From: Halobacteriales archaeon QS_8_69_26
Lineage (GTDB): Archaea > Halobacteriota > Halobacteria > Halobacteriales > SW-7-71-33
Direction: 5' to 3'
DNA length: 64,000 nucleotides
Assembly (NCBI GenBank): GCA_003023195.1
Contig: PXRX01000008.1
Span: forward strand, 186,569 to 250,568
The notes under the pieces are model-generated. The model was not told the DNA's origin, did no database searches, and saw only the letters and a program-made list of their open reading frames with translations. Shown one piece after another: positions 3,039 through 59,423 of this stretch; position 1 is the first letter of the stretch; every line of letters starts with the position of its first letter. The translations under genes were made by a program, and so were the position numbers.

Positions 3039-3043
3039 TCGGG

Positions 3044-4848: not shown

Positions 4849-4854
4849 ACAACA

Positions 4855-5151: not shown

Positions 5152-5157
5152 TAACAC

Positions 5158-9179: not shown

Positions 9180-9213
9180 CCCGGGCGGCCGGACTGGCAG
9201 GAGGTGACCGGCA

Positions 9214-11115: not shown

Positions 11116-11121
11116 CACTGG

Positions 11122-13368: not shown

Positions 13369-13525
13369 CGCCCGCTCCGGCGGTTCGGCCTCGTCCGTTC
13401 GGTCCGGGCCGTACGTCGCCAGCTCCGATTTCCCTGCAGGATCACGTACCTACGTATTTACCGCGAACACTTCCATCGAAGTTATATGAGAGCGTCCAGA
13501 TCTTGGGCAACAAGAACCGCAGACG

Positions 13526-14746: not shown

Positions 14747-15157
14747 CGCACCTGACCCGGCTACCGCTAGGGCCGTTCTCTCGCTCGTCTCGTCGCTCCC
14801 GACCACTGTTCCTTCGCGTGCGCGATTCAACATATCGAGTGGCGCTCGGCGGTCCCGGCGTCGCGAACCGCGTGTGACCGGTTCTCAAATGGAAACAATC
14901 GGGATCCGTATATTTACTGGCCGTCGGTGGATGCTCCGGATCGGTCGGTATACGGCGAAATCGTCAAGTAGGTCCTGAAACGGCTCTTTTTGGAGTCACG
15001 GAACGAGTGGTGTCAGAGATCACCGCCACGGAAGGAGTCACGTATTTGTGGTATTTATTTTTATTCTATAGGTCAGATACCGTTAGGATGCACAATCTTA
15101 TATATGGCCGATTTATCTTCGGGGATGTTCGGTACTCGAACGAACGAGTGAAGAATA

Positions 15158-16870
15158 ATGCCAGAGTACCTATCACCAGGCGTCTACGTCGAAGAAGTGG
15201 ACGCCGGCGCCAAGGCAGTAGAGGGGGTCAGTACAAGCACTGCCGCGTTCCTCGGTCCGACGGAGCGCGGTCCAGTCGAACCGAGGCTCGTCACGAGCTG
15301 GGGTCAGTTCACCCGGATTTACGGTAAGAGTCCGGGCTCGAACCTCGACGTCGCCGTCGACGGGTTCTTCAAGAACGGCGGTGCCCGGGCCTACATCACC
15401 CGGGTGACGCCGGACGATCCCGACGACGTCGCGAAGGCGACGGTCACGGACGGGAGCGGCGACCCGGTCATGGACGTCGGGGCCATCGGCCCCGGCGACT
15501 GGGCCAACACCGTCGCCATCATCGTCGAGGACAGCGCGATGTACACGGAGGGCGAGAACCAGCTGTTCGACGTCACGGTCCGATACTGGTCGAAGGACCG
15601 CGACGAGATCAGCGAGCCGGCCTCCGCGGACCCGTCGCCGTCCCCGGACGCTTCCGCGACCTACGACGAGCTGACGCCGGATCCCTCGTCGAGTTCGCAC
15701 TTCGCGAAGCAGATGGCCAACGACGTGCTCGTCGACGTCGAGGCGGCCGGCGACGGCCGTCCCGAGACGGGCATCACCTGGCTCGGCGACGACAGCGGCG
15801 GCAACAACTCCACCAACGGGTCCAGCAGCGACGGGGACGACGAGGACGGAATCCCCGACGACGACGAACTGGACGACATGACGTACAACGAGCTCCGCGA
15901 CCTGGCGGAGCCGTACGACATCGACCGGACCCAGAAAAAAGACGAGATCAAGGAGGATCTCCAGCGGGTTCGCGACAGCGGCGAGGCCGCCACCGACGGC
16001 GGGACCGACGAACTCTCGCTGAGCGACTACCAGGGCCAGGACATCACCGGCGAGCGTACCGGTATGGCCGCGCTCAAGGAGCACGACAACGTCTCGCTCG
16101 TGGTCGTTCCCGACGAGAACGACATCCGCGGCCTGACCGAGGCCGTCGTCACCCACTGTGAGAACCAGGGCGACCGGTTCGCCGTCCTCTCGTGCCCCCA
16201 GAACGCGGGACGGGTCTCGAACATCCACACGCCCGTCGACTCCTCGTACGCGGCGTACTACTACCCGTGGATCGAGACGAAGGACCCGATCACGAACGAG
16301 GAGAAGGTCGTCCCGCCGGCCGGTCACATGGCCGGTATCTACGCCCGCAACGACAACACCGAGGGCGTCTGGGGTTCCCCCGCGAACATGGTCGTCCGCG
16401 GGGCGCTCGACCTCCAGCACGACATCACCAAGGGCGAGCAGGACGTGCTCAACCCGCGCGGCGTCAACTGCATCCGCGCCTTCCAGGGCCGCGGGATCAG
16501 GGTCTGGGGTGCCCGGACCTGTTCCAGCGACCCGAGCTGGAAGTACATCAACGTCCGCCGGCTGTTCCTCTTCATCGAGCAGTCCATCGAGGAGGGGACC
16601 CAGTGGGCGGTCTTCGAGGCCAACGACAGGGAACTGTGGGACCGCGTCGAGCAGTCGGTCCGGATGTTCCTGACGACGGTCTGGCGCGACGGTGGCCTGA
16701 TGGGGACGAGCCCGGACGAGGCGTTCTTCGTCAACTGTGGCGAGTCCACGATGACCCAGGACGACATCGAGAACGGACGCCTGATCTGCGAGATCGGCGT
16801 GGCGCCGGTCAAGCCGGCCGAATTCGTCATCTTCCGCATCCAGCAGTGGACGGAGGAGGCCGCGCCATAA
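15158..16870 (+). CDS. Tail sheath protein (CIS)
   Basis: MPEYLSPGVYVEEVDAGAKAVEGVSTSTAAFLGPTERGPVEPRLVTSWGQF; C-terminal sheath core INVRRLFLFIEQSIEEGTQWAVFEANDRELWDRV. Confidence 0.96.
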   Translation: MPEYLSPGVYVEEVDAGAKAVEGVSTSTAAFLGPTERGPVEPRLVTSWGQFTRIYGKSPGSNLDVAVDGFFKNGGARAYITRVTPDDPDDVAKATVTDGSGDPVMDVGAIGPGDWANTVAIIVEDSAMYTEGENQLFDVTVRYWSKDRDEISEPASADPSPSPDASATYDELTPDPSSSSHFAKQMANDVLVDVEAAGDGRPETGITWLGDDSGGNNSTNGSSSDGDDEDGIPDDDELDDMTYNELRDLAEPYDIDRTQKKDEIKEDLQRVRDSGEAATDGGTDELSLSDYQGQDITGERTGMAALKEHDNVSLVVVPDENDIRGLTEAVVTHCENQGDRFAVLSCPQNAGRVSNIHTPVDSSYAAYYYPWIETKDPITNEEKVVPPAGHMAGIYARNDNTEGVWGSPANMVVRGALDLQHDITKGEQDVLNPRGVNCIRAFQGRGIRVWGARTCSSDPSWKYINVRRLFLFIEQSIEEGTQWAVFEANDRELWDRVEQSVRMFLTTVWRDGGLMGTSPDEAFFVNCGESTMTQDDIENGRLICEIGVAPVKPAEFVIFRIQQWTEEAAP

Positions 16871-16902
16871 CAGTTATATAGCGACCAACTGAGCATAAAA
16901 CA

Positions 16903-17376
16903 ATGGCAGACAGAGACGCCATCAATGCGCCAGCGAGGACGACCCGTTTCGAGGTCGAACTCGAACTGGACGGCGGAGCAGTACAGGGTTGGAAGACGAT
17001 CGAGCTACCATCGGTGTCGACCGAGGAGGTCAGCTACCGGGAAGGTAACGAGCAGGTCGCCTACGACCACCCGCTGTGGGGGCGTCACGAGTACGACAAC
17101 CTCACGATGACCCGTGGCGCGAAGACGGGCGAGACGATGCTGTGGGACTGGCGACAGAAGGTCATCGACGGGAACCTCGACGAGGCCCGCAAGTCGATCG
17201 CGGTGACCATCTTCGACGTCGCCAACAGCGCCTCCCTGCTCCGCTACGAGTTCGAGGGTGCCTGGCCGGTCAACTACAGCCCGCCCACTCTCGACGCCTC
17301 CGCCGTCGGCGGCGAGTCCGCCCTGGCAGAGGAAGAGATCGAGATCGCCTACGAGAAGTACGAGCGCTCGGCCTGA
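16903..17376 (+). CDS. CIS tail tube protein
   Basis: FEVELELDGGAVQGWKTIELPSVSTEEVSYREGN; gp19/T4-like tube family pattern. Confidence 0.93.
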   Translation: MADRDAINAPARTTRFEVELELDGGAVQGWKTIELPSVSTEEVSYREGNEQVAYDHPLWGRHEYDNLTMTRGAKTGETMLWDWRQKVIDGNLDEARKSIAVTIFDVANSASLLRYEFEGAWPVNYSPPTLDASAVGGESALAEEEIEIAYEKYERSA

Positions 17377-17487
17377 TCCGGCCGGGGCTCCTCCCGAGGT
17401 TTCGCATTTTTCCCGCCGGACGGCGCGATATCAGGGCACCAGACACCGTAGGTATTACTTACCCAGACGTGAAACGGGTGGGATAGT

Positions 17488-18039
17488 ATGGCAGGCAAAC
17501 TCCAGACCGAATTCGAGTTCACGCTCCCGCAGGGGTACGTCGACGACGAGGGGAACCTCCACAAGGAGGGGCGCATGCGACTCGCGACGGCCTCGGACGA
17601 GATCGAACCGCTCCAGGACCGGCGCGTCCAGCAGAACTCGTCGTACCTGACTATCGCCTTGCTCTCCCGGGTCGTCACCCAGCTCGGGGACTACGAGGGA
17701 TCCCAGGTGACACCGGCGATCATCGAGGACCTGTTCGTGGCCGACCTGGACTACCTCCAGCGGCTCTACGAGCGGGTCAACAACCGGGGTGCGAACGTCG
17801 TCGCGACCGCGTGTCCCGAGTGTGGCCTGGAGTTCGACGTCGACGCCGAGACCGGAGGCGTCCGCGAGATGTCCGCGATGGAGAGCGCGCCGGGCGGTGG
17901 CGGCGGTGGCGGTCCACAGGTGTCGATCGCCGGGGAGGACCTCACCGAGGCCATCGAAGGGGGGAACATGGACATCCCCGACCACGAACCGAACGTCCCC
18001 GACCGGGAACCCGACGTGGACGGTGATCCGGGAAATTAG
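17488..18039 (+). CDS. gp41-like CIS tail assembly protein
   Basis: RMRLATASDEIEPLQDRRVQQNSSYLTIALLSRVVTQLGDYEGSQVTPAIIEDLFVADLDYLQRLYERVN...CPECG. Confidence 0.75.
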   Translation: MAGKLQTEFEFTLPQGYVDDEGNLHKEGRMRLATASDEIEPLQDRRVQQNSSYLTIALLSRVVTQLGDYEGSQVTPAIIEDLFVADLDYLQRLYERVNNRGANVVATACPECGLEFDVDAETGGVREMSAMESAPGGGGGGGPQVSIAGEDLTEAIEGGNMDIPDHEPNVPDREPDVDGDPGN

Positions 18040-18044
18040 ACCCG

Positions 18045-18278
18045 ATGATCGAGGTCTACCCCCTCGGACGGCTCTACGAGGAAATAGCGTTCGTCGCCTA
18101 CCACTTCCAGTGGAACGAGGAGGAGATCCTCGAGATGCCACACTGGGTTCGCCAGCGTTGGTGCGAGGAAATAAGTAAGATCAACGAAGAACTAAACAAG
18201 GAAGCCCGCGAATCGAGCGATCAGGGGGGAACCACCACGATCCGCCTCGACGGTCCCGATTCGCCGTTCGGAGTGTGA
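18045..18278 (+). CDS. DUF6760-like small CIS protein
   Basis: LYEEIAFVAYHFQWNEEEILEMPHWVRQRWCEEI; position between assembly protein and tube 2. Confidence 0.75.
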   Translation: MIEVYPLGRLYEEIAFVAYHFQWNEEEILEMPHWVRQRWCEEISKINEELNKEARESSDQGGTTTIRLDGPDSPFGV

Positions 18279-18281
18279 CAA

Positions 18282-18881
18282 ATGGCAAAAAAGAACACGA
18301 AGTACTGGGGCAAGGAACCGACGAAGAACCCCTTCAGGAACTTCAAGTTCCGGGTCGAGCGATTCGAGTCCGGCGGCGGCTGGTCGGAGTTCGCCGGGTT
18401 CAACAGCGTCTCCGGGATGTCCGTGGAGATGGAACCCGAGACCTACGAGGAGGGCGGGGTCAACGGGTACGTCCACGAACTCCCGAAACAGATCTCCTAC
18501 TCGAACCTGCAGCTCGAACGGGGGTTGACCCAGCAGACGGTACTCATCGAGTGGATGGAGGAAGTAAAGCAGGCGACGAGCGGTCAGGGGTCGAGCTTCC
18601 GCGAGTCGCCGAACATCACCGGATCGGCGCTGCACCCGGTTTCCGGCGGGAGCTGGGAACAGATAACGAAGGACGTCCCGCCGACGACCGGCGCCAGGAA
18701 GCACGTCCGGGTGGTCGTCGACGACCACCAGGGCAACATGGGCTGGGGCTGGGTCTTCGTCAACGCCTACCCCGTGAAGTGGGAGGGGCCCGACCTGGAC
18801 GCCTCCTCGGCCGACGTGGCCAACCAGTCGCTGGAGCTGTCCTACGACACCTTCGCGAAGGGCGTCAGCCAGGAGCAGTAG
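18282..18881 (+). CDS. Second CIS tail tube protein
   Basis: NFKFRVERFESGGGWSEFAGFNSVSGMSVEMEPETYEEGG...LQLERGLTQQ. Confidence 0.9.
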   Translation: MAKKNTKYWGKEPTKNPFRNFKFRVERFESGGGWSEFAGFNSVSGMSVEMEPETYEEGGVNGYVHELPKQISYSNLQLERGLTQQTVLIEWMEEVKQATSGQGSSFRESPNITGSALHPVSGGSWEQITKDVPPTTGARKHVRVVVDDHQGNMGWGWVFVNAYPVKWEGPDLDASSADVANQSLELSYDTFAKGVSQEQ

Positions 18882-18894
18882 GTCCCCCTCCGAA

Positions 18895-19515
18895 TCAGGT
18901 GTCCGACGGCGTGAAGCTGACTTCCCACTCGCCGGTCCGCTCGCCGGAGGGGTACTTGGGGGTCTCGTCCTCGCCGCTTATCACCACGGGGCCGACGAAG
19001 TAGGTCACCGAGGGGTGGAGCGAGGCGTCCTGCATCGAGTGATAGAGGTCCTCGATCCGGTCGATGTCCTGGCGCTCGAGGGCGATGGAGAGCTTGTTGT
19101 CGCCCATCCCTTCCGGGAGTTCGTACTTGCCGATGATCGCGTTCTGGTGCATGACCTGCATCGCCAGCCCCAGGACGCGTTGCTGGTCGATGCTGTTCGC
19201 GGTCTGGTCGTTCCCGCCGGTGGAGGGGTAGGCGGTCATCAGGTACTGGAGGGTGAGCGCGAGCGGTCGCTCCGTCCGTCCGCCGATCTCCACTTCGTGG
19301 TGCTGGTCGACCTGGCGGTGTTCCTGGATCCCGTAGAGGTACAGCCCCAGTCTGACGTCGGACTCCGCGCCGACGTCGTCGGGCGAGACGAGTTCTATCT
19401 CGTTCCTGTCGACGTTGACGACGTCGCTTCGCTCGGTGATCCGGTCCCTGAGGAGTTCGAGGATCGCCTCGCTGGTGTGGGCGATCGTCGAGTACGACCC
19501 GTACTGCTTGCTCAT
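18895..19515 (-). CDS. DUF4255 (Pvc16/Afp16-like) sheath/tube terminator protein
   Basis: SYSTIAHTSEAILELLRDRI...LGLYLYGIQEHRQ...RPLALTLQYLMTAYP. Confidence 0.85.
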   Translation of the reverse strand: MSKQYGSYSTIAHTSEAILELLRDRITERSDVVNVDRNEIELVSPDDVGAESDVRLGLYLYGIQEHRQVDQHHEVEIGGRTERPLALTLQYLMTAYPSTGGNDQTANSIDQQRVLGLAMQVMHQNAIIGKYELPEGMGDNKLSIALERQDIDRIEDLYHSMQDASLHPSVTYFVGPVVISGEDETPKYPSGERTGEWEVSFTPSDT

Positions 19516-19721: not shown

Positions 19722-20918
19722 TCACCCCGGCTCCGGGACGGTCAACCGGAGTTCGATCCCGTAGTCGGGGTGGACGGGTGCGACCATCGCGGTCCCGGGG
19801 ACCACCGTCGCGGTCGGCGGCGCGTCGTCCGGGTCGACGTCGGGGTGCTGTCTCGCGCCTTCCTCGCTGAGGACCCAGGTCCAGTCGTCGTGTTCGCCGA
19901 CGTAGGTGCCGTTGATGCTGTTGTCCTCGACGATCCAGCCGGCGTGGCTGTGCTCGAACCGGACGTGTTCGGGGGAGACGTGCTGTTGAGGGTCCGGCAG
20001 GACGACCCAGGGGACCTGTGCGTCCCCGACCAGTCGCCCCATCGTGTGGCCGTCGGTGATCGAACACTTCACGTTGGAGTCGAGGTGCGAGAGCAGGGCC
20101 CGGGGTCCACGGCGGGTGGCCTCCGCGACGGCGTCCCGGAGGGCGGGACCGTCCTCGTATCGCTCCCCGACGTCCGGGATGGTCGCCGTCCGGATCACTT
20201 CCGCCAGTTCGCGGGAACAGGACGCCCCGAAGTTGATGGGGTCGACGCCCCGGTCGGGGACGTGTTCGGTGGGCACCTTGGCCCCGGTCAGCAGGTAGAA
20301 GGCGAACTTCCCCCAGGAGTAGACGTCGGAGTGGGGGCCGGCACTGGCGGGGTCGCCGGTCTCGGGGATCAGTTCCGGCGGCTTGTAGTGGTCCGGTTCG
20401 AACAGGGTCTCGACGTCGTCGCGGGTGTCGACGGCGGTGTTGAAGTCGATGAGCACCGGCCGCCGGGACCGCTGGCGCAGGACCACGTTCTCGGGCTTCA
20501 GGTCGAGGTAAACCACGCCGTTGCGGTGCAGGAAGTCGAGCGTCTCCGAGAGGTCGATGACGATCCGTCGGCGCACTGCCGTTCCCAGCGAACCGGTCCC
20601 GAGGATCCCGGAGAGTTCGTCGCCGGGGAGGTACTCCAGGGCGATGTACCGCGGGTCCGAGCGGATGTCCTCGTCGAGGAACCGGACGACGCCCGAGGGC
20701 GTGATGCCGCCGGCGAAGCGGCCGAGCGTCTCGACCTCTCGCTCGAACCGCCTGTGGACCTCCTCGGTGTCGTGGGTCGCCAGGTCCGGGCACTTCAGGG
20801 CGACGTCGCGGTCGTACTCGCGGTCGTGGGCACGCCAGACGATAGAGAACCCACCCGTCCCGACCTGCTCCCGGACCTCGAACCGGCCAGCGACGGTGTC
20901 TCCGACGGATAACGTCAT
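19722..20918 (-). CDS. Serine/threonine protein kinase with C-terminal FHA domain
   Basis: VGTGGFSIVWRAHDREYDRDVALK, VVYLDLKPENVVL, VLIDFNTA; FHA motif MGRLVG...HVSPEHVRFEHSHAGWIVEDNSINGTYV. Confidence 0.92.
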   Translation of the reverse strand: MTLSVGDTVAGRFEVREQVGTGGFSIVWRAHDREYDRDVALKCPDLATHDTEEVHRRFEREVETLGRFAGGITPSGVVRFLDEDIRSDPRYIALEYLPGDELSGILGTGSLGTAVRRRIVIDLSETLDFLHRNGVVYLDLKPENVVLRQRSRRPVLIDFNTAVDTRDDVETLFEPDHYKPPELIPETGDPASAGPHSDVYSWGKFAFYLLTGAKVPTEHVPDRGVDPINFGASCSRELAEVIRTATIPDVGERYEDGPALRDAVAEATRRGPRALLSHLDSNVKCSITDGHTMGRLVGDAQVPWVVLPDPQQHVSPEHVRFEHSHAGWIVEDNSINGTYVGEHDDWTWVLSEEGARQHPDVDPDDAPPTATVVPGTAMVAPVHPDYGIELRLTVPEPG

Positions 20919-21123: not shown

Positions 21124-22122
21124 ATGCCGGAGGACATCCCCGAAAACTCTCTGACGAAGACTTGTCCGAACTGCGGCAAGGACGTCAGGGTCGACGCGAA
21201 CTTCTGTAAGTACTGTGCGAACCAGTTCGACGAGGACGAGGGGGAATCCGAGGAAGAGGATCCGATCGAGGAAGGGGACTCGAGCGAACTCGACGAGTGT
21301 CCCGACTGTGGGGCGGACCTCTCGCGGATCCCGTCCGAGCGACTCTCGGACTGTCCCATCTGTGGGACGGACCTCGCGCACATCCTGGAGGAACCGGAGG
21401 AGGCGATGCTCACCCCGGCCGACCTGGAGCAGTGTCCGGACTGCGCGGAGGACCTGACCTCCATTCCCGAGGACATGCGACTGGTCTGTCCCAACTGCCG
21501 GGTCGACCTCGAGGAGGCCATCGACGCCGCGATGGAGTCCCACGACGCCGGCGAACCGGAGGTCGGCACTGGCGGTGGGGGTGGGGCCGCCTCCGGCAGG
21601 GGCAGTACCGGCACGGGTGGGTCCGGCAGGGACGCGGGCGCCGGCAGGGGCAGATCCACCGGAGGCGGTACCGGAAGGGGTGGGACCGGGAGAGCCTCCG
21701 GGGGGTCCCGGCGGGCCGAGGGGGCCGCCCAGGAGGACATCGACGCCGCGGTCAACGACGTCGGCGGGGGTCGGCGTGCGGGCGGCGGGGTCGACCGCGA
21801 GCCCCGGGTCCAGCGCGAACCCGAGGAGATAATCTTCGAGGTCATGGGCCAGGAGATCCGGGCCCGTGGCGGGGACAAGGTCGGCCGCGAGATCCGGACT
21901 GCCATGGTCGAGGCGGGCGCCTCCGAGGACGACGCGGTCTACATCCACCGCGAGCACGCCCGGGTCGACAAGGAGGGGGACGAGTTCTACCTCGCCCGGA
22001 TCGGGGAGAACAGCCTGAAGGTGAACGGAAAGCTCGTCGGCGAGAACCAGCGGATGCCGGTCTCGGACGGCGACCAGGTGGCGTTCTCGGAGGTCGTCAC
22101 CGCGAACGTTCGCATAGTGTGA
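21124..22122 (+). CDS. Triple zinc-ribbon protein with C-terminal FHA domain
   Basis: Three CxxC...CxxC modules (CPNCG..CKYC; CPDCG..CPICG; CPDCA..CPNC), then VGREIRT...YIHREHARVDKEGDEFYLARIGENSLKVNG. Confidence 0.88.
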   Translation: MPEDIPENSLTKTCPNCGKDVRVDANFCKYCANQFDEDEGESEEEDPIEEGDSSELDECPDCGADLSRIPSERLSDCPICGTDLAHILEEPEEAMLTPADLEQCPDCAEDLTSIPEDMRLVCPNCRVDLEEAIDAAMESHDAGEPEVGTGGGGGAASGRGSTGTGGSGRDAGAGRGRSTGGGTGRGGTGRASGGSRRAEGAAQEDIDAAVNDVGGGRRAGGGVDREPRVQREPEEIIFEVMGQEIRARGGDKVGREIRTAMVEAGASEDDAVYIHREHARVDKEGDEFYLARIGENSLKVNGKLVGENQRMPVSDGDQVAFSEVVTANVRIV

Positions 22123-22251
22123 CGGGCGGAACGCACCGCGGAGTCGGGGGACCGACCGGCTCCGCGAACGGGTGGACGGGTCGACGCCCGGTTCGAGGGT
22201 CCACGACCCTCGGTGCCGTCGCCACGACCGAACCGGATCGCTCGGGGGACG

Positions 22252-23412
22252 ATGGTTGAGATCACTACCCAGGTCGACAGGCCGAACGTTCCACCGCGAC
22301 GGACGGCGGTGAAGGCGTCGATAACGATCCAGCCGGGCGTCCAGCGGACCGACGTCGTCCGGCACGTGGCGCTGTGTGTCGACACCAGCGGGTCGATGAC
22401 GGGCGAGAAGATGGCGCAGGTCCGGGAGGGGATACTCTGGACCTTCGGCTACCTGGACCCCGACGACTACGTCAGCGTGGTGTCGTTCGACGACGAGGCG
22501 GAGGTCGTGCTCCCGGCGACGAGGTGGGGCGACCTGGACCGCGACGCCGCCGAGGCGGCCATCGAGGGGATGGAGGCCAGCGGCGGGACCGACGTCATGG
22601 CCGGGCTACGGACGGCCCACGAGACGCTCTCGGAGTTGCCGACCGGCGGCGACGTCGCCCGGCGGATCCTTCTGCTGTCGGACGGCCGGGACGACACCCC
22701 GCCGGAGACGTTCGCCGACGTGGCACGCCGGATCCGCATCGAGGACGACGTGTCCATCCCGGCGGCGGGCATCGGCGACTACTACGACGAGGACGTCATC
22801 CGGGCGGTCGGGACTGCCTCGGAGGGGGAGTGGATCCACCTCTCCGAGCCCTCGGACATCGAGGACTTCTTCGGGCGGAAGGTCGAGGGCATCTCGACGG
22901 TCGTCGCGCCCCAGCCACACCTGGAACTGTCGCTGGCCGAGGGGGTCGAGGTCCGGGAGGTCCTCATCCGCCAGCCACAGGTCCAGGCCGCCAACTACGA
23001 CAGCCACGACGACACCGTGCGGATCTACCTGCCGGACCTGCTGGAGTTCAAGGAACAGGAGGTCGTCCTGGAGGCCCGGACGCCCGCCTGGCGGCCCGGC
23101 CGAACGGTCGCCCTCGCCGACGTCGTCCTCCGGGCCGAGGGCCGGGGGGAGCGGGGAACGATCGTGGTCAGGTGTACCGACGACCCCGACGAGTTGGCCG
23201 TGACCAACGACGACGTCGGCGTCCGGCACGTCGAGACGAAGGTCCGCAAGGCGGCGGGCGAGGGCGACATCGAGGCCGCCGAGACGCTGGTCGACCACGC
23301 CACCGAGGTCCACGACGAGGAGAACCTCTCGACGCTGCGGACGGTCGTGGAGAAGGCCAAGCAAGGGGGCATCGAGCAACAGTACACGACGACGAAGGTG
23401 AAGGACAACTAG
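22252..23412 (+). CDS. VWA-domain protein with intact MIDAS
   Basis: HVALCVDTSGSMTGEKMAQVREGI, GGTDVMAG, LLLSDGRDD. Confidence 0.92.
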   Translation: MVEITTQVDRPNVPPRRTAVKASITIQPGVQRTDVVRHVALCVDTSGSMTGEKMAQVREGILWTFGYLDPDDYVSVVSFDDEAEVVLPATRWGDLDRDAAEAAIEGMEASGGTDVMAGLRTAHETLSELPTGGDVARRILLLSDGRDDTPPETFADVARRIRIEDDVSIPAAGIGDYYDEDVIRAVGTASEGEWIHLSEPSDIEDFFGRKVEGISTVVAPQPHLELSLAEGVEVREVLIRQPQVQAANYDSHDDTVRIYLPDLLEFKEQEVVLEARTPAWRPGRTVALADVVLRAEGRGERGTIVVRCTDDPDELAVTNDDVGVRHVETKVRKAAGEGDIEAAETLVDHATEVHDEENLSTLRTVVEKAKQGGIEQQYTTTKVKDN

Positions 23413-23416
23413 GCCA

Positions 23417-24649
23417 ATGAGCTACCAACCACAGGATGGCGACGTCATCGCCGACAAGTACCAGCTAGACCAGTTCGTCGACGAGGGGGGCATCTCGAAG
23501 GTCTGGGTCGGGCACGACGTCTCCAGCGGACGCAAGGTCGCCATCAAGCACCCGAACTACGACTCGACGAACGACCCGGCGATCATCGACGAGAGCCTCC
23601 GGAGCGAACTGGAGATCCTGGAGTCGATCAGCGACGCGGGCGGGCACCCGAACGTGATGACCCTCATCGAGGGGATGGAACACGAGGACCTGCTCTTTCT
23701 CGTCGTCGACTTCATCGAGGGCGAGGACATGCACAAGGTCGTCGAGCGCCGCAACGGCATCACGGACCCGGGCGACATCCGGCGGGTCGGTATCGACCTC
23801 TCGGAGGCGATGTCCTTCCTCCACCAGAACGAGATCATCTACCGGGACCTGAAGCCGGACAACGTGATGTTGAAGCGGGACCTGACGCCGGTGCTGATCG
23901 ACTTCAACACCGCGAAGGGGTTCGAACCGGACGACGGCGAGTCCGACGCCACCTCCGGGACGGTCATCCCCAACCCGACGTACAAGCCCCCGGAACTGAA
24001 CAACGACCCGGAGCTCATCGGCTACCGGCAGGGGCCCTGGTCGGACGTCTACTCCATCGGGAAGTTGCTGATGTACATGCTCTCGGGCAGCGGCGTCCGG
24101 AAGGACGCCGTCGACCCGCGGGACTTCCCCGGCACGCGGTCGGTCCCGGCCTACCTCGCGGAGATAATCGAGAACGCCACCCAGAAGCACAAGGACGACC
24201 GGTACCCGAACGCGACGGTCCTGGCGCGCGTCCTGGAGAGCCGCGACCCACAGCCCCCGGAGGTCGGACAGTTGGTCCACCTCCAGGAGGGCGAGACCTA
24301 CGAGATATTCCCCGGTGACACGGTCGGGCGCAAGGACGCCGACGGTCCCCAGGCATCGATCACGCTGGACGACCCGGACAACTACATCTCGGCGGTCCAG
24401 GTCCAGTTCGACATCGACGAGAACGGGGACTGGGTGCTCGACGACCGGAGCCTGAACGGGACCTGGGTGAACACGGGCGACGGGTGGAACCGGGTACTCG
24501 GCTCGGAGGGCCTCGAACGGCTCCTGGAGAAGGGCGAGGACCCCCGCGAGGACGGGAAGATGCCCCCGGAACGCATGGTGATAGAGGAGGGCGACCGGAT
24601 CGCGCTGGTTCACCCGCGCTACGGGGTCTGGCTACGCTTCGACGGGTGA
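23417..24649 (+). CDS. Serine/threonine protein kinase with C-terminal FHA-like domain (paralogue of 19722..20918)
   Basis: GISKVWVGHDVSSGRKVAIKHP, IYRDLKPDNVMLKRDLTPVLIDFNTAKG; FHA-like VGRKDAD...WVLDDRSLNGTWV. Confidence 0.93.
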   Translation: MSYQPQDGDVIADKYQLDQFVDEGGISKVWVGHDVSSGRKVAIKHPNYDSTNDPAIIDESLRSELEILESISDAGGHPNVMTLIEGMEHEDLLFLVVDFIEGEDMHKVVERRNGITDPGDIRRVGIDLSEAMSFLHQNEIIYRDLKPDNVMLKRDLTPVLIDFNTAKGFEPDDGESDATSGTVIPNPTYKPPELNNDPELIGYRQGPWSDVYSIGKLLMYMLSGSGVRKDAVDPRDFPGTRSVPAYLAEIIENATQKHKDDRYPNATVLARVLESRDPQPPEVGQLVHLQEGETYEIFPGDTVGRKDADGPQASITLDDPDNYISAVQVQFDIDENGDWVLDDRSLNGTWVNTGDGWNRVLGSEGLERLLEKGEDPREDGKMPPERMVIEEGDRIALVHPRYGVWLRFDG

Positions 24650-24655
24650 GAGACA

Positions 24656-26110
24656 ATGCAGTATGCAACCGCATTCGACATCGGCAAACGGAAGCGCGAG
24701 CAGGGCGGGATCAACGAGGACAGCGTCGCGGTCGACCTGCTCAACGACGGGCACCGGGACTCCGAGCGCCGGGCCGCCGTCTTCACCCTCGCGGACGGGG
24801 CGGGCGGGGCCAAGGCCGGCGACGTCGCCTCCTACGTCATCACCGTGGAGGTGACCCGCCGGCTCACCGAGAAGCTCTGGAACACCCGGAGACTCGGCGA
24901 AATCATCGACGCGGGGTCGCGCCAGGGGGCCACCATGGGGACCCGTGGGCTGGGCGATTCGGTCACGAACGATCCCCTCGCCGAAATCACCGACGACGGC
25001 GTCCACATCATCATCGAGGAGGCCATCCAGGAGGCCCACACCCGGCTGATCGAGGTCATCAACGAGTACGACCTGGAGAGCGCCTACTCGACGGTCGTCG
25101 CCGGGATCAAGATCGGTGACACGTTCCACTACGGCTGGGTGGGCGACAGCCGCGCCTACGTCGTCAACACGGCCGAGGAGCGCGACGAGGACCAGCGGGT
25201 CAGCCTCCTGACCAAGGACCACTCGGTCGTCGAGCGCCTCGTCAACGAGGGCGAGATAGACGAGGTCGAGGCCTACGTCCACAGGCGAGGCAACCGCGTC
25301 ACGCGGGCGCTCGGGGGCAACCGCGGCGAGGACCCCGAAGCCAGCCGGGTCGACGTCGACACCAACTCCATCCAGCTCTACGGCGACGACGTCCTCCTGA
25401 TCACCAGCGACGGACTGATCGACGCCTACACCGGCGCGCCCGAACTCCACAAGCAGTACGAACAGGCCGACGACACCGAACAGATCGAGGAGGCCATCCT
25501 GGAGAAGTCCGTCACCGACGACGAGATACGGGACGTGATCCTCGAGGCCGCTACCCTGGACGCGGCCGCACAGGAGTTCGTCGACCTCTCGAACGAGCGC
25601 GGCGGGAAGGACAACGTCTCGCTCGTTCTCTTTCGCGACGGGAACCTCCCGCGGTCGCCGGTCGGCGGGTTGCCCGTCCGACTGTACGACCCCGACCCCG
25701 AGGAGATATACGACTGGGAGACGGTCCTGATGCACTCGGAGGACGACGCCGACAAGCCGGTCGCCTCCGCCGAGAGCGGCGGGGGCGGGACCGCCTCGGC
25801 TGCCGCGACGGCCGCCGAACCGGAGGCCGCCTCGGCGGCCGCGTCCCCCGACGCCGAGGGGACGACCGCCGACGTCGCCGCGGGTGCCGACGCCGACCCG
25901 GACGAATCCGTCGCGGAGGAGGTGGACGAGGACGCGGAGTCGGCCACCGAGTCCGAGACGGAGGGGACGGGCTCGGAGACGGAGGAGACGGACGCCGACA
26001 CGGAGGAGTCGACAGCCGGGGACGACGGATCCGGGGATGACGAGGGTGGCGACGACTCCGGGCCCGATGCCTCCGACTTCGAGTTCTCGTTCAGTTCCGA
26101 CTCCGAGTGA
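24656..26110 (+). CDS. PP2C-family serine/threonine phosphatase with acidic C-terminal tail
   Basis: GGINEDSVAV, LADGAGGAKAGDVAS, GWVGDSRAYV, TSDGLIDAY, GGKDNVSLVLF. Confidence 0.93.
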   Translation: MQYATAFDIGKRKREQGGINEDSVAVDLLNDGHRDSERRAAVFTLADGAGGAKAGDVASYVITVEVTRRLTEKLWNTRRLGEIIDAGSRQGATMGTRGLGDSVTNDPLAEITDDGVHIIIEEAIQEAHTRLIEVINEYDLESAYSTVVAGIKIGDTFHYGWVGDSRAYVVNTAEERDEDQRVSLLTKDHSVVERLVNEGEIDEVEAYVHRRGNRVTRALGGNRGEDPEASRVDVDTNSIQLYGDDVLLITSDGLIDAYTGAPELHKQYEQADDTEQIEEAILEKSVTDDEIRDVILEAATLDAAAQEFVDLSNERGGKDNVSLVLFRDGNLPRSPVGGLPVRLYDPDPEEIYDWETVLMHSEDDADKPVASAESGGGGTASAAATAAEPEAASAAASPDAEGTTADVAAGADADPDESVAEEVDEDAESATESETEGTGSETEETDADTEESTAGDDGSGDDEGGDDSGPDASDFEFSFSSDSE

Positions 26111-26119
26111 CTGCCCGGC

Positions 26120-27364
26120 TCACCCGATTTCGGTGCCGCAGGCCGGACAGAAGGCGCCCTCGGGGTCGACCGGTTCGCCGCAGTTCGAGCAACTGACCTC
26201 CCCGGGTTCGTCGTTCTCGTCGACGTCCTCCAGGTCGACGGCCCCGGACTCGACGAGGGTGACCGCCCGCTCGGCGGCCGCACGGAGTCCGTCGGGGGCC
26301 TCCTCCTCGGCGGCCAGCCCCCGGAGGTCGCCCAGTCTGAGCCCCGCCGGGGGGTCCCGCTCGTCGAGGTTCTCAAGGATGCCGACGAGGCCGTCGCGGG
26401 CGGCCTCGACGTCCTCCGGGAACTCCTCGGCTAGCGCCGAGAGCGCCCCCAGCGAGTTGTGCCGGACCGCCCGGTCCTCGTCGGCCACCCGTCGGGTCAA
26501 AAGATCCACCGTCGGCCTGGGGGCCTCGGGGTTCTCCTCTGCCAGGTAGGCCAGCGCGAACGTGACGTGGCGCTTGACCCCGGTGTCGTCGTGGTCGAGT
26601 CGTTCGAGCAGCGACTGGGCGGTGTCCGCGTGACGGCCCGACGGCTGGCGGGTGGGGTACCCCAGCGCGTAGGCCGCGGCCGCGCGGACCTCCGGGTCGT
26701 CGTGGTCGGTCAGTTCGATCAACCGCTCGGCGGCGTCGAGGACGTCCTCCGGGGAGGCCACCCCCACGTTGCCCAGGGCGTAGGCGGCGTTCTTGAGGAC
26801 CGCCTCGGAGTCGTCCTCGAGTCGTTCGCGGAGCCCCTCGCCCCCCTCGGCGACGGCCTCGGGGTCGGCACCGGCGATGTCGCCCAGCGTCTTGGTGACG
26901 TTGACCCGCACCTCGGCCGTCTCGTCGTCCAGGAGCGAGAACAGCCGTTCCAGTACGCCCTCCTGGGCCAGCGCCTCGGGGTCGGCCTCGGCGATGGACT
27001 CCAGGGCGTAGGTGACGTTCACCCGGATGGTCCCCTCCTCGTCGATGACCGCGACCAGTGCCGGCAGGACCGCCGCCACCTCCCCGGGGTCCTCGTCGGC
27101 CACGTTCCCCAGTGCCAGTGCGGCGTCGTCCTGCAGGTGGTCGTCGTTCAGACACTCCGTCAGCGGGTCGACGAGCGCGACCCCGTCCCCCGGATAGCTC
27201 TCGGTCAGCCGCACGACCGTCCGCAACGCCCGCCCCCGAACGTAGTCGCTCTCGGCAGTCAGGAGGTCCGCCAGTTCCGAGACGTGCCCCCGGAGTTCCG
27301 GAAGCCGGGTCTCGGCCATCCTCGCCAACTCGTCGGCCTTCGATCGCGCTTCGCTCTCGGCCAT
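26120..27364 (-). CDS. HEAT-repeat protein with C-terminal zinc ribbon
   Basis: Tandem HEAT/PBS-lyase-like repeats; C-terminus CSNCGEPVDPEGAFCPACGTEIG. Confidence 0.85.
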   Translation of the reverse strand: MAESEARSKADELARMAETRLPELRGHVSELADLLTAESDYVRGRALRTVVRLTESYPGDGVALVDPLTECLNDDHLQDDAALALGNVADEDPGEVAAVLPALVAVIDEEGTIRVNVTYALESIAEADPEALAQEGVLERLFSLLDDETAEVRVNVTKTLGDIAGADPEAVAEGGEGLRERLEDDSEAVLKNAAYALGNVGVASPEDVLDAAERLIELTDHDDPEVRAAAAYALGYPTRQPSGRHADTAQSLLERLDHDDTGVKRHVTFALAYLAEENPEAPRPTVDLLTRRVADEDRAVRHNSLGALSALAEEFPEDVEAARDGLVGILENLDERDPPAGLRLGDLRGLAAEEEAPDGLRAAAERAVTLVESGAVDLEDVDENDEPGEVSCSNCGEPVDPEGAFCPACGTEIG

Positions 27365-27494: not shown

Positions 27495-28967
27495 TCAGGC
27501 CGCGGCCCGCGTGACGTCCCGGTAGTAGGTCAGCAGCGACCCGACGAGCAGTATCCCGGCCCCGGTCCGGACGATGGGGTGGCCGAGACCACGCAGGAGC
27601 CGTCGGATCCACGGCGGCAGCCACCGGGGGCCGGATGCGTAGTCCGGTTCGACCGGTCTCGCCACCCGGACGTTCACCCGGAACCTGTCGGCTTTCACCC
27701 GGCTCCCGGTCCAGTCCTCGACCCGGCGCTCGGCCTGGCGCTGGCTGGGCGGTGGCTCCCCGCGACGGTCCCTGTCGTTGGCCCACGCCAGGAGGTCGCC
27801 GACGGTCCTGTCGTGGTCGGACAGCATCGCCGCCAGCCGGGACAGCACCGCCGCCCCGCGGAGCCGGCCCGCCTCGGAGTCGGTCCCGTCGGCCAGCAGG
27901 CGGTGTTCGGTCTCGCCCCCCTTCGCGAGGACCCCGTCGTGGTCGCGCGGGGCCGCCAGCCCCTGTTCGAGCGCCAGCCGTACCGAGAGGTAGCTCGCGC
28001 TGGCCTCCCGGAACCACCCGAACTCCTCGCCGGAGAGGTTCCCCTGCCGGGTGTGGACGTACTCGTGGATCCAGACGTTCCAGGCCGCCGACAGCCGTGC
28101 CCCGGCGTAGACGACGAACTCGTTCGCCCGGGCCTGCCCCGCGACGGTGCCGTTGGGCAGCCCCGGCATCGCGAACACCCGCACGTCGCGGTAGACGTGA
28201 CCCACGTCGAGGCGGCGGGCGCTCTCCGCCAGCGTCCGGAGGACCCGGTCCGGGTCGGCCAGCCGTTCCCGGTCGACGGCGTCCGGCACCACCAGCGTGA
28301 TGGTCTGGCACCCGACGGTCGTCCGGTACCGGTCGACCCCGTCCAGCACCAGGAACCGTGCACCGATCACGCCCTCCCCGGCCGGTCGCAGTTCCACGTC
28401 CGGGCCGGTCCGGAGCACTCGCCCCACGAGGTGGTCCTCGCCGCTGGGGAACGGGAACGCCCGGCCCTCCAGGGTTCGTCCGGTCGTCCGGACCCGGACC
28501 CGGGGGTTCTCGGTCGACCCGTCCCAGGCGAACTCGCCGTCCCCGGTGGGCCCGAAGCCGTCGGCGGAGACGACCTCTGCCCCGGGAACGTCGCCGACGG
28601 TGAAGGTCCGGGACCGCGAGGCCGGGACCCGGAACTCGACGAGGTACACCGACCGGTTGAGCGCGGCCTGGCGCACGACCCCCACCACTCCGTCCCCCTC
28701 GGCCGCCGTCGCCTCCGCCCGGTCGTCCTCGCCACCGGTGAATCCCCTACTTTCGTACTCCGCCTCCGGGCTCCCGATGCACTCCTCCGGGGGACCGTCG
28801 TCGGGGTATCGCTCCTCGACGACGCCCGTGCCGGAACTGAGCGCCGGCGCGGCGACGATGGTACAGCAAAGGATCGCCACGAGGACGGGGACGGCCCCGG
28901 TCCGGAGCCGCCGGAGTCCCGCCCTGAGTTCGGCGCGGATCCCGTTGGGGGGTGTTCCCTCCTCCAT
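27495..28967 (-). CDS. Membrane-anchored HExxH metallopeptidase-like protein
   Basis: N-terminal TM LRTGAVPVLVAILCCTIVAAPAL; WIHEYVHTRQGNLSGEEFGWFREASASYLS; C-terminal TM. Confidence 0.7.
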   Translation of the reverse strand: MEEGTPPNGIRAELRAGLRRLRTGAVPVLVAILCCTIVAAPALSSGTGVVEERYPDDGPPEECIGSPEAEYESRGFTGGEDDRAEATAAEGDGVVGVVRQAALNRSVYLVEFRVPASRSRTFTVGDVPGAEVVSADGFGPTGDGEFAWDGSTENPRVRVRTTGRTLEGRAFPFPSGEDHLVGRVLRTGPDVELRPAGEGVIGARFLVLDGVDRYRTTVGCQTITLVVPDAVDRERLADPDRVLRTLAESARRLDVGHVYRDVRVFAMPGLPNGTVAGQARANEFVVYAGARLSAAWNVWIHEYVHTRQGNLSGEEFGWFREASASYLSVRLALEQGLAAPRDHDGVLAKGGETEHRLLADGTDSEAGRLRGAAVLSRLAAMLSDHDRTVGDLLAWANDRDRRGEPPPSQRQAERRVEDWTGSRVKADRFRVNVRVARPVEPDYASGPRWLPPWIRRLLRGLGHPIVRTGAGILLVGSLLTYYRDVTRAAA

Positions 28968-29147
28968 CGACGGCGCTCCACCCGGTTTCCGGCGTGGTGC
29001 TTCCCCCACTAATGTCCGGGGATCTGTCGAGGGACTGTGGGATCCGACGGTGGAGGACGGCACTCCGTGGGGTGGTCGTGGGCGGATCCGCCAGGGAACC
29101 GTGGGAGAAAGCCAGTCCGTCGGGGGAGGACGGCCCCGGGAAACGGA

Positions 29148-32100
29148 TCAGTCGTCGCCGTCGCTCGGTTCGGGTTGTTCGCTCTCGGTAGCGGCGTCGT
29201 CGGCGTCGTCCTCGTCCTCGCCGGGTTGCATGATGATGGTCTCGGAGGTCTCGTCGTCCTCGTCGTCGGCGTCGGGGTCCATGATCAGCGTCTCCGAGGT
29301 CTCGTCGTCCTCGTCGTCGCCGGGTTGCATGATGATGGTTTCGGAGGTCTCGTCGTCGTCGGCCGCGTCCCCCTCCTCGTCGGCGTCGCCGGCACCGGTC
29401 TCTTCGTCGGCGTCCCCGGCCTCGCTCTCGTCGTCCCCGTCGTCGCCGGGTTGCATGATGATCGTTTCGGAGGTTTCGTCGTCGCCCTCCGCGACGGCGT
29501 CTCCCTCGTCCCCGGCCTCGCTCTCGTCGTCGCCGGGTTGCATGATGATGGTCTCTGAGGTCTCGTCGTCGGCGTCGGCCTCGTCCCCTGCATCGTCGTC
29601 GCCGGGTTGCATGATGATGGTCTCGGAGGACTCGTCGTCGGCCTCGGGTTCGTCGCCCTCGTCCACTGCGTCTGCCCCCTCGTCGGCGTCGCCGTCGTCG
29701 TCGCCCGGTTCCATGATGATGGTTTCCGAGGACTCGTCGCCGTCGCCGGCGTCGGCCTCCGTCTCCGGGCTCTCGCTCCCGTCGTCCTCGTCGCCGCCGG
29801 GTTCCATGATCAGCGTCTCGGCGTCCTCGTCGTCTTCGTCCTCGGCCTCGACGCGGGTTTCCTCCTCGCCGACGGCGCCGAAGTCGAACTCGCCCTCGTC
29901 CATCTCGTCGAGATCGTCGCCGCCCTCCATCGGGTCGAACACGCGGGTGTCGCCGGAACTGCCGGCCTCGTCGGCGTCCTCGACGTTCCAGACCTGGGTC
30001 TCCTCGCCGGCGGGACCCTCGGGTTCGGTCCCACCGGTGGGGGTGCCGGTCTGGACGGCGCTGGCGGCCGACTGGAGGGTCTCGCCCTCGATGTCGACCG
30101 CGGGGTCGCGCTGGAGGCGCCGGAGGCGGTCCGAGGCCTCGGCGGCCGGGTCGACCAGGCCCGGATCACGCTCCGCGAGGGTCACGATGACCTCCGCGGC
30201 CCGCTCCCTGACGATGGAGGAGTCGTCGTCCAGGCGGCCGATCACCCGGCGGATGTCGGAGGCGATTGCGGCGGGTTCGTGGGCCGCGAGTTCGTCCAGG
30301 GCGTCCAGCGCGGTCGCCCGGGTCCGGGTGTCGCTGTCGTCGATGACGACCGCCAGGTTCTCCGCGACGGGTTCGACCGCGCTGGGGTTGTGGTCGGCGA
30401 CGTTCGCGAGCACCTCGGCGGCGTTGCGCCGCACCCGGACGCTCCCCTCCTCAAGCGCGGCCGTGACGGCCGGGATGGCCTCCCGCGAGGCCTCGGGGAA
30501 CTCCTCGGAGAGGTTCGCCAGCGACTGGAACACCGCCTCGCGGGTCGCTCCGCCGACGTTGCCGGCGATGTTGACCAGCGGTTCGATCAGGTTGTCGCCG
30601 CGGCTCACGCCGTGGTCGGTGACGTCGCCGACGAGTTCGGCGGTCACCTCGCTGACGTTCTTGCCAGCGATCATCGCGCCGGCGTACTGGCGCGAGACCG
30701 GGGTCGGGTTCCCCAGGCCGGCGGCCATCTCCGGGAGGACCTCGGTCCCGTAGCCGGGGTACTCGTCGAGGACCCGCGAGAGGCCGCTGATGGCCATCTC
30801 GCCGACCGTGCCGGAGGTTCCGAGGTTCAACACGAGTCCCTCGACGAACGGGCGGCCGTCGTCGGGCGAGGCGGCGATGACCGTCGCCGCCGCCGCGACG
30901 CAGTGCTCCCGGACCGTCTCGCTCTGGTGGGTCAGTCCCGACTCGATGGCGGTCATGACCCTGTCGTCGTGGCGCTCCTCGGGGTTGAACTGGATGAGGT
31001 CCTTCAGGACCTGCGCGGCCGGTTCGCTGACGGTCGCGTCCTCCACCGGGACGTACTCCGCGACGATGCCGGTCGCGTCGGGATACTCGGCGAGCTGGTC
31101 CGGTGGGACGAGTTCCAGCGCCCGCAGCAGTGCGGACTCGGCGGTGCCGGCGAGCGCGGAGTCCTGGTTGGAGAGGTGGGCGACGATGTCCTCGACGACG
31201 GCACCGCGGCGCTCCTCCGAGGCGGCCTCGACGAACGCGAACACCGCCTCTGCGGCCTGTCCCCGCGACTGCTCGTCGGGGTCGTCCAGCATCCCAAGCA
31301 GCCGGTTGGGGTCGATCCGGTTGGCGTGGCGTGACATCGAGGACTCCAGGACGTGGGCGGCCATGTACCGGACCAGCGGCTCGTCGCTCTCGACGCCCGA
31401 GAGTACCGTGTCCAGGCCGCTCGTCTCGACTATCGCCGTGTCGCTCGTCAGTGCGTACGCGGCCGCCGCGCGCGCTTCCCCGTCGGTGAACTCCGACCAC
31501 CTGACCAGGTCGACCAGGATCCGTTGCTCGTCCTCGCTCCCCAGGACCGTCCCCAGGTCGGCCCGGGCGTACCGGCTCTCGTCGGTGGCCCGGTGGGCGG
31601 TGTACCAGAGGCGAGCGAATGCCTTCACGACCGAACTCGTCAGGTCGATGTCGGCGGGTTCGTCGCCCAGGATCTCCTCGATCCGCTCGATGGGGAGGTC
31701 CTCGACCTCGTCCAGTGGCGGGCGCTCGACTTCCTGGCTCGTGTACCCGATCAGCAGGATCCGGGCGTATGCTTCGACGCCCAGTTCGCGGGTGGTCCGG
31801 TCCTCGCCGTCCAGGTGCTTCTGGACGGCCGCGAGGACGGCCTCGTCGGTGAGGCGGTCGACTGTCTCCAGGGCGCGCTCCCCACGCAGGAGTTCGACGA
31901 CGCCCATCAGGGCTGGCCGTGCGAACTTCTCGTCGTCGAGGTACAGCGCCCCGACGAACTCCTCCAGGGCCTCGTCCTCGCGGTACAGCGACGCCCCGGC
32001 GGCGATCGCCAGCCCCTCGAGGGCCGTCGAGCGGAGGCCGTCGTCGCGGGCGCGAACGTACGCGAGCAGGCGGTCGATCTCGCCTTCGGTGATCGAGGAC

Positions 32101-33302
32101 GGGTCCTCCTCGACGCGCTCTATCATCCCCTCTATCTCGTTCGTCTTGAGGACGCTGGAGACGCGGTTCGCGCCGTAGCCGAGCGGTAGCGCGACGACCG
32201 GCAACAGGAACGCCGCCCGGACGGTGAAGTCCTGGAGCACGCCGACGACGACGTCGAGGAGGACCAGGCCGACCATCACGTAGCCGCCACAGACGAGACC
32301 GACCAGGACGGCGTCGCCACCGATCCCGGGGATCGAACTGCCGGGGCCGCTCGCGAACCTCGTGGTCGCGCCCCGGGGGTCGACGGCGCCGGCGATGGCG
32401 ACGATAACCGAGACGAACAGCATCAGGTGGAGGACCGCGCCTTGCGTGTAGGTGATCACGAGCACCGAGTAGAGGAGGAAGACGCCGACGGGAACGACCA
32501 CGTTCCCGACGATGGAGGGGGTCCGGGTGGGCGGGTACAGCCCCCGGTAGCCGAGCACCTCCGGGATCGTATTCCCCTCGGAGTACTTCGCGTAGTGGAC
32601 GGCGAGGAACGCGCCCACGACGACCAGCGGGAGCAGGTGGCCGGCGTCGACCGTCGGGGAGTAGACGCCGGCGAGGACGGGCGTGAACCCGTCCGAGGCG
32701 TTGACGTTCACGCCGATGGCCCCCCCGAGTTGCTCGGGGACGACCTTCCAGACGCGGTAGACGGGGTTGATGGAGAACAGGGCCGCCCACAGCAGGTAGA
32801 CCGGGACCCTGGCGAGACTCTCCCAGAGGGCCGCTCGCCTCGCCGCGTCGTCGGAGTCGACCCCGATCAGGAGCCGTTCGCGGAACTGCGATCCCACGTA
32901 CGCGACCGCGAGCGCCGGCAGCGCCAGTACCGTCCCGATGACCAGAAGCGGGAGTAGCTGGTCCGTCAGCCACTCGGCGGAACTCAGGTTCAGGACGAGT
33001 TCCTCCATGAGCTTCCTCCGCCGGTTCGCCCAGTCGCCCTGGAAGACGGTCACGGCCGCCGCCCTGGTCCCGACGTACAGTCCGACGAACGCGAGCGCCG
33101 ACGCCCCGAGCCACTGACCCATCGCGAGACGTTCGCCCTCGCCCGTGTACGTGCCGATCCGGTTCCGGTGGTAGCGTAACTTGTACCCGGCGTAGACGAT
33201 GGCGAACGCCGGGAACACCAGTTCCCATGGGAAGAAGGCCAGTCCGAGCGCGATCAGGAACGCGATCAGGGCCCCCTTTACCGCTCTGACCTCAAGCACC
33301 AT
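29148..33302 (-). CDS. Large polytopic-membrane HEAT-repeat protein with acidic C-terminal SETIIMQPGDD repeats
   Basis: Hydrophobic N-terminal segments, many HEAT repeats, then eight acidic Thr-containing motifs. Confidence 0.85.
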   Translation of the reverse strand: MVLEVRAVKGALIAFLIALGLAFFPWELVFPAFAIVYAGYKLRYHRNRIGTYTGEGERLAMGQWLGASALAFVGLYVGTRAAAVTVFQGDWANRRRKLMEELVLNLSSAEWLTDQLLPLLVIGTVLALPALAVAYVGSQFRERLLIGVDSDDAARRAALWESLARVPVYLLWAALFSINPVYRVWKVVPEQLGGAIGVNVNASDGFTPVLAGVYSPTVDAGHLLPLVVVGAFLAVHYAKYSEGNTIPEVLGYRGLYPPTRTPSIVGNVVVPVGVFLLYSVLVITYTQGAVLHLMLFVSVIVAIAGAVDPRGATTRFASGPGSSIPGIGGDAVLVGLVCGGYVMVGLVLLDVVVGVLQDFTVRAAFLLPVVALPLGYGANRVSSVLKTNEIEGMIERVEEDPSSITEGEIDRLLAYVRARDDGLRSTALEGLAIAAGASLYREDEALEEFVGALYLDDEKFARPALMGVVELLRGERALETVDRLTDEAVLAAVQKHLDGEDRTTRELGVEAYARILLIGYTSQEVERPPLDEVEDLPIERIEEILGDEPADIDLTSSVVKAFARLWYTAHRATDESRYARADLGTVLGSEDEQRILVDLVRWSEFTDGEARAAAAYALTSDTAIVETSGLDTVLSGVESDEPLVRYMAAHVLESSMSRHANRIDPNRLLGMLDDPDEQSRGQAAEAVFAFVEAASEERRGAVVEDIVAHLSNQDSALAGTAESALLRALELVPPDQLAEYPDATGIVAEYVPVEDATVSEPAAQVLKDLIQFNPEERHDDRVMTAIESGLTHQSETVREHCVAAAATVIAASPDDGRPFVEGLVLNLGTSGTVGEMAISGLSRVLDEYPGYGTEVLPEMAAGLGNPTPVSRQYAGAMIAGKNVSEVTAELVGDVTDHGVSRGDNLIEPLVNIAGNVGGATREAVFQSLANLSEEFPEASREAIPAVTAALEEGSVRVRRNAAEVLANVADHNPSAVEPVAENLAVVIDDSDTRTRATALDALDELAAHEPAAIASDIRRVIGRLDDDSSIVRERAAEVIVTLAERDPGLVDPAAEASDRLRRLQRDPAVDIEGETLQSAASAVQTGTPTGGTEPEGPAGEETQVWNVEDADEAGSSGDTRVFDPMEGGDDLDEMDEGEFDFGAVGEEETRVEAEDEDDEDAETLIMEPGGDEDDGSESPETEADAGDGDESSETIIMEPGDDDGDADEGADAVDEGDEPEADDESSETIIMQPGDDDAGDEADADDETSETIIMQPGDDESEAGDEGDAVAEGDDETSETIIMQPGDDGDDESEAGDADEETGAGDADEEGDAADDDETSETIIMQPGDDEDDETSETLIMDPDADDEDDETSETIIMQPGEDEDDADDAATESEQPEPSDGDD

Positions 33303-59384: not shown

Positions 59385-59423
59385 CGCCAGCACACGCGAC
59401 GGGAGCGATCGAATCGTGCTACC

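Follow-up and report, generated by a model that had tools for sequence, protein, structure and literature searches.

The acidic tail of an archaeal membrane protein, here called mHEAT, repeats a Thr-centered motif ten times and is encoded beside genes for kinases, FHA proteins, and a PP2C phosphatase. All of these genes lie in one stretch of 64,000 nucleotides (the window) from Halobacteriales archaeon QS_8_69_26. Judging from sequence, we consider it reasonably probable that the tail is a multivalent docking array for FHA domains that bind phosphorylated Thr (pThr). Elsewhere, gene modules of this type use such a tag once or twice; the tail would multiply it to ten copies, and the PP2C would be its eraser. 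The motif probably represents a docking tag of phosphorylation signaling that was amplified here, not a random repeat. The original prediction had read the tail as an FHA docking array. What the evidence supports is a functional Thr-centered motif belonging to the kinase/FHA/PP2C module, while FHA docking remains predicted. Comparison with other haloarchaea supports enlarging the idea to a tag that would be module-wide.

The repeat tail of mHEAT

mHEAT (29148..33302, minus strand) is 1384 amino acids long. It has a multi-TM N-terminus (residues ~1-400, with ~8 hydrophobic segments), HEAT repeats up to residue ~1060 (Pfam HEAT_2, Cnd1), and an acidic tail (residues ~1076-1384) encoded at 29148..30077 on the minus strand. 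The membrane region, HEAT repeats, and Thr-repeat tail expected for this protein are all present. In sequence comparisons, mHEAT is an orphan outside the conserved gene set of the module. One weak match to the HEAT region aside, no relatives were found in 394 haloarchaeal genomes, and there were none among viral contigs or in the genome_contigs collection.

The tail holds eight E-T-[IL]-I-M units plus one TQVW and one TRVF, giving ten motif copies. The eight units originally listed are all in frame in this open reading frame, on the minus strand: EDAETLIMEPGGD (unit 1, 29790..29828), ESSETIIMEPGDD (unit 2, 29697..29735), ESSETIIMQPGDD (unit 3, 29595..29633), ETSETIIMQPGDD (three times: unit 4, 29526..29564; unit 5, 29439..29477; unit 6, 29313..29351), ETSETLIMDPDAD (unit 7, 29265..29303), and ETSETIIMQPGED (unit 8, 29214..29252). 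The motifs reported upstream of the units are there as well, on the same strand: TQVW (EETQVWNVE, 29988..29999), TRVF (GDTRVFDPME, 29937..29948), and TRVE (29847-29858).

The array is far beyond chance. T[IL]IM occurs eight times in the tail, against a mean of 0.0015 and a maximum of 1 in 10,000 shuffles of the tail. Over the last 226 residues, counted from unit 1, the motif takes up every Ile (14/14), Met (8/8), and Leu (2/2). Linkers between units range from 3 to 29 residues. Around the Thr, Ser is found at -2 in seven of the eight units, and all eight have Glu at -1 and Pro at +5.

The underlying DNA array was also detected by TRF, with units ~80% identical. Most copies share the Gln codon CAA, so the units probably arose by duplication. 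Codon differences between units are evenly split (37 synonymous, 36 non-synonymous), and thus the mHEAT repeats alone prove no selection. Within its own genome, ETxIM-coding sequence has nine matches; eight are the mHEAT units. The ninth, an ETVIM that belongs to a subtilase encoded at the end of contig 19, was rejected as unrelated. The exact array, ET-phi-IM-[EQ]PGD, occurs nowhere else in the 394 haloarchaea. A relaxed pattern gave 63 matches in the genome_contigs collection, but these were scattered, never arrayed, and never on a record with a haloarchaeal title. The window has other near-perfect tandem repeats at 53180-53396, 59420-59591, and 41602-41709 (units of 25, 31, and 36 bp, respectively), the last inside a predicted reading frame.

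Kinase, FHA, and phosphatase genes beside mHEAT

Seven genes lie between mHEAT and the genes of a contractile injection system (CIS; tubes, sheath, spike, baseplate, and Pvc16; 2412..19497). These encode, in order, a Ser/Thr kinase with a divergent C-terminal FHA domain (kinA, 19722..20918, minus strand), an ArnA-like zinc-ribbon FHA protein (ZnFHA, 21124..22122, plus), an ArnB-like VWA protein (22213..23412, plus), a kinase-FHA fusion (23417..24649, plus), a PP2C phosphatase (24656..26110, plus), a HEAT protein with a C-terminal zinc ribbon (26120..27364, minus), and a membrane protein with a peptidase-like HEYVH...E motif (27495..29063, minus). The kinase-FHA is the proposed writer and the best candidate reader. 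The PP2C, the proposed eraser, matches Pfam PP2C_2 and scores below the cut-off of the NCBIfam Stp1 model. The counterpart of the HEAT-zinc-ribbon protein in genome G232 has a TEVFNP tag. The peptidase-like protein, whose gene sits between two HEAT-protein genes, has no family match; its HEYVH with a downstream Glu is zinc-peptidase-like. Another HEAT-like protein with a C-terminal zinc ribbon is encoded in the same genome ~13-17 kb before the window (L110, 3110-6496; G000 C8). Anti-phage defense was considered and rejected, PADLOC having returned only generic kinase and HEAT matches.

Three FHA proteins had been proposed nearby, and each is supported. The FHA domain of the kinase-FHA is recognized by Pfam. 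Its residues R305, S325, N347, and G348 are invariant in 20/20 sequences, and the Arg, Ser, and Asn of a canonical pThr pocket are all present. For ZnFHA, an AlphaFold model shows a C-terminal FHA fold (pLDDT mostly >93), and Foldseek matches FHA structures at probability 1.00. Its pocket Asn is invariant in the window and the relatives compared. The pocket is nonetheless non-canonical: His replaces the phosphate-contacting Ser (IHREH) in the window and in most f3 relatives, making ZnFHA the weakest reader candidate. The FHA domain of kinA has a profile match, a conserved G-R...S-x-N-G-T, and a confident beta-rich C-terminus in its model; the kinase domain of the same protein is nearest to PknB. 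Both kinases in the window have DFN instead of DFG, and their activity is therefore not guaranteed. Among relatives of the kinase-FHA, the DFG position reads DFN or DFT, and HRD is replaced by YRD.

Recurrence of the motif in other haloarchaea

We found the kinase-FHA in 53/394 haloarchaeal genomes from 16 genera (E <= 1e-20). In the loci that we read, VWA and PP2C genes adjoin it, usually together with ZnFHA. From these modules we derive a consensus tag, S-[DEN]-T-x-[VI]-[FYW/M]-x-P, which recurs in three places in relatives. A functional motif linked to the module is supported by all three: a C-terminal PP2C site, TR[VI]F conserved in the tail of a membrane protein, and Thr-specific tags of neighboring proteins.

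The first place is the PP2C C-terminus. In several genera, [DE]R[DE]TV[IVL]x follows shortly after the catalytic GGKDN, with ends such as DRDTVIMTDE, DRETVIFSDE, and DRETVILPGE. The PP2C of the window has WETVLMHSEDD aligned at this conserved site, followed by an extra acidic tail; its ETVLM (25718..25732, plus strand) is orthologous to the motif of the relatives. More distant PP2C copies (G237, G288) keep the Thr alone, without the +2/+3 hydrophobics. In f4 genomes and in G114 (loci L045-L053 and L067-L071), the PP2C has an FHA-like C-terminal domain that replaces the C-terminal tag.

The second place is a multi-TM protein of f3 and f4 modules that has an acidic tail and ends in a zinc ribbon; 24 such proteins form a single cluster. 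The tails align nowhere but at TRVF[ST]P, D-T-[AS]-V-F, or DTRIF. Their recurrent feature is T[RQ][VI][FY], together with D-T-[AS]-V-[FY], and at least one copy was present in 17/17 tails examined. The TRVF of mHEAT has this conserved form. Homology between the TM region of mHEAT and this protein was rejected (hhalign probability 0.25%). The two TM scaffolds being non-homologous, the same tail design is found on different membrane proteins.

Third, 26 module neighbors in four genomes (G176, G232, G288, and G114) have T-x-[VI]-[FYW] within 75 residues of the C-terminus, and 17 of the 26 have a C-terminal zinc ribbon. Zinc-ribbon neighbors with TxVF/TxIY tags (L073, L066, L054, L071, L191-L194) make up a list of candidate substrates. 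Repeat number, which the prediction had named as a point to check, does vary, with one or two motif copies in relatives and ten in mHEAT. Conservation of the Thr, followed through the other module proteins as mHEAT has no detectable relatives, also held.

Position 0 of the motif is strongly biased to Thr. The +3 position was widened to F/Y/W after relatives were seen, and the tagged proteins are not phylogenetically independent, so all p-values for these proteins are guides only. With that reading, x-x-[VI]-[FYW] in disorder-like context begins with Thr in 44/90 cases against 10.3 expected (binomial p ~2e-18), and with Ser in 4 against 7.7. Control loci, taken from 20 regions surrounding injection systems in genomes without the module, gave Thr 17 against 10.5, one LysM motif accounting for 5/19 hits. 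Compared with other Thr of the same proteins, tagged neighbors are enriched for Ser at -2 (p 2e-5), Asp/Glu/Asn at -1 (p 4e-8), and Pro at +5 (p 2e-6). These positions were not used for motif selection, and their preferences agree with those of the mHEAT array.

Other counts were negative or weak. Disorder-context counts exceeded the control loci significantly for G176, G232, G288, G114, and the window; those of the f3 and f4 families were not enriched. For [DE]T.[IV][MFW], a strict motif derived from the window alone, 16 representative loci showed no enrichment close to modules (5/656 [DE]T vs 27/2786, p 0.82). Genome-wide, D-T-x-[IVM]-[FY]-x-P showed a weak excess (24 hits in 30 module-bearing genomes, 17 in 30 module-lacking genomes).

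FHA ligands have Thr, not Ser, and a selected +3 residue, and the array has this form (TIIM, TLIM, TRVF, and TQVW). The strong preference for Thr and not for Ser matches the FHA requirement. Known ligands with a hydrophobic +3 include pTxx[ILV] (PMC8786283), pTQxF of MDC1 (PMC11884936), and pTSIV of DgcB (PMC6733907). The Met at +3 of the mHEAT units is less typical than Phe or Tyr.

These counts also bear on a phospho-independent reading. T-x-[VI]-[FYWM] might be a short hydrophobic beta-strand or groove binder for an unphosphorylated partner, such as the VWA or HEAT domain, and the acidic flanks would serve only for tail solubility at high salt. The near-confinement of bulky hydrophobics to the motif in the mHEAT tail would suit such a sticker. 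Moreover, haloarchaeal proteins ordinarily have disordered tails of this acidic kind, and phosphorylation is our inference. However, a sticker does not account for the preference for Thr over Ser, Val, and Ala at position 0, or for the co-location of kinase, FHA, and PP2C genes with the motif. We regard this reading as unlikely, at about one chance in a handful.

Proposed docking mechanism and comparison with known systems

In the mechanism that we propose, the tag Thr is a substrate of at least one of the two Hanks-type kinases. FHA domains, most likely that of the kinase itself, would then bind the pThr together with the large hydrophobic +3 residue. The PP2C, which has one tag of its own, would reverse the phosphorylation. 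Tags in series may concentrate kinase-FHA, VWA, and FHA proteins at mHEAT, and their number could make the response graded or cooperative.

One output that could be added to the docking array, without competing with it, is that mHEAT serves as a phosphorylation-switched membrane anchor of the CIS. The CIS genes directly adjoin the module, and kinA lies beside Pvc16 on the same strand. There is precedent in the Agrobacterium T6SS, where TssL phosphorylated by PpkA (pThr14) is bound by Fha (PMC3953482), and a putative membrane anchor has been described for the haloarchaeal T6SS-like CIS (PMC11566945). Unlike mHEAT, that published candidate combines six TM helices with a ~150-residue cytoplasmic domain, and the haloarchaeal injection-system paper makes no mention of a kinase or FHA. 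Furthermore, in 10 other haloarchaea the CIS had no module gene in its vicinity, and module and CIS co-occur in 8/394 genomes against 6.6 expected, which is chance level. CIS linkage as a general rule for the module is therefore rejected; the link is adjacency in one genome. We consider the anchor role improbable. Similarly speculative is the broader idea of a haloarchaeal pThr tag code, S-[DEN]-T-x-[VI]-[FYWM]-x-P, encoded at the locus. A single kinase/FHA/vWA/PP2C module would use it to address many zinc-ribbon and membrane neighbors, and here it would have been amplified tenfold on a membrane HEAT scaffold gating the injection system. With regard to the CIS itself, its sheath gene has relatives in 49/394 haloarchaeal genomes. 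The Baseplate_J protein (5553-9179) contains a PEP-utilizing-enzyme mobile domain at residues 426-496 (PF00391, E 8.5e-22), which is unusual for a baseplate.

The repeats might instead be phosphorylated without any FHA docking. A threshold would then arise from the change in bulk charge, or because the repeats compete for the kinase and the PP2C. The tag on the PP2C C-terminus would fit such a substrate sink. So would the resemblance of the motif to mycobacterial PknA-dependent sites, which have acidic residues at -1 and at -3 to -6 and Leu/Val at +3 (PMC7164672). Nevertheless, both the Thr-specificity and the narrow choice of residues at +2/+3 are what an FHA reader would select, and FHA domains occur in every module. 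To us this makes a sink quite unlikely. Least likely, and already disfavored, is neutral expansion, a recent duplication of a 40-nt segment in an acidic low-complexity tail without selected function: it is consistent with the shared CAA codon, the ~80% identical DNA, and repeats that alone show no purifying-selection signal (37 vs 36), but not with a motif conserved at orthologous PP2C places and in unrelated membrane-protein tails, or with TQVW and TRVF, which are non-identical in the same tail and not copies.

By parts, the module comes closest to the Sulfolobus Arn network (ArnA, a zinc finger-FHA protein; ArnB, a vWA protein; the kinases ArnC/ArnD; and the phosphatase PP2A). Both have a zinc-ribbon FHA, a vWA protein, a Hanks kinase, and a phosphatase. 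ZnFHA has profile matches to 8s05 chain C and to ArnA 5a8i, both at its zinc part. The best PDB match of the adjacent vWA is 8s05_A (E 5e-8), with VWA2 5a8j at E 8e-4; chain lengths and a 2026 paper suggest that 8s05 is ArnAB. The C-terminus of the module vWA is Thr-rich, and its counterpart in ArnB is phosphorylated and bound by ArnA. In contrast to Arn, the window has a PP2C and not a PP2A-type phosphatase, and the module has a kinase-fused FHA and additional tagged membrane and zinc-ribbon proteins. Its tag is T-x-[VI]-[FYWM]-x-P, whereas ArnB sites are of SIETT type, and no archaellum link was seen for the module. According to a 2016 survey, ArnA/ArnB pairs belong to a signaling mechanism of kinases and phosphatases that is general (PMC4858521). 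A VWA protein, a kinase, and a PP2C are also the parts of the TerY-P triad, in which the VWA is of TerY type.

By setting, the closest system is the bacterial T6SS threonine-phosphorylation pathway (PpkA, PppA, and Fha, with TssL pThr14). It likewise has kinase, PP2C, and FHA beside a CIS, and in T6SS the FHA docks at a Thr of a membrane protein, as is predicted here. It differs in having one site and another membrane protein, and the CIS linkage is not conserved in our case. Self-docking by GarA/OdhI and DgcB also involves a tail Thr followed by +2/+3 hydrophobics that is bound by FHA (pTSIV in DgcB). The GarA motif is ETTSVF. Theirs is a single intramolecular site, whereas mHEAT would offer an array in trans.

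By principle, the closest system is the TQXF repeats of MDC1, read by the FHA domains of RNF8 and Pellino. Several Thr-motif copies with a bulky hydrophobic +3 stand in one stretch in both proteins, and in MDC1 they are FHA-read. The two are without homology, and +1 is Gln for ATM in MDC1 but [IL] or basic/polar here. We found no earlier report of the module tag in a subset of the open-access literature, an absence that is not proof of novelty. To our knowledge, archaeal Ser/Thr signaling has very few defined triples of writer, reader, and site. A tag recognizable in sequence, accompanied by its own kinase, phosphatase, and FHA genes in 53/394 sampled genomes, yields a predicted list of substrates. 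If the docking array is real, multivalent FHA docking of the MDC1 type would have a counterpart in prokaryotes.
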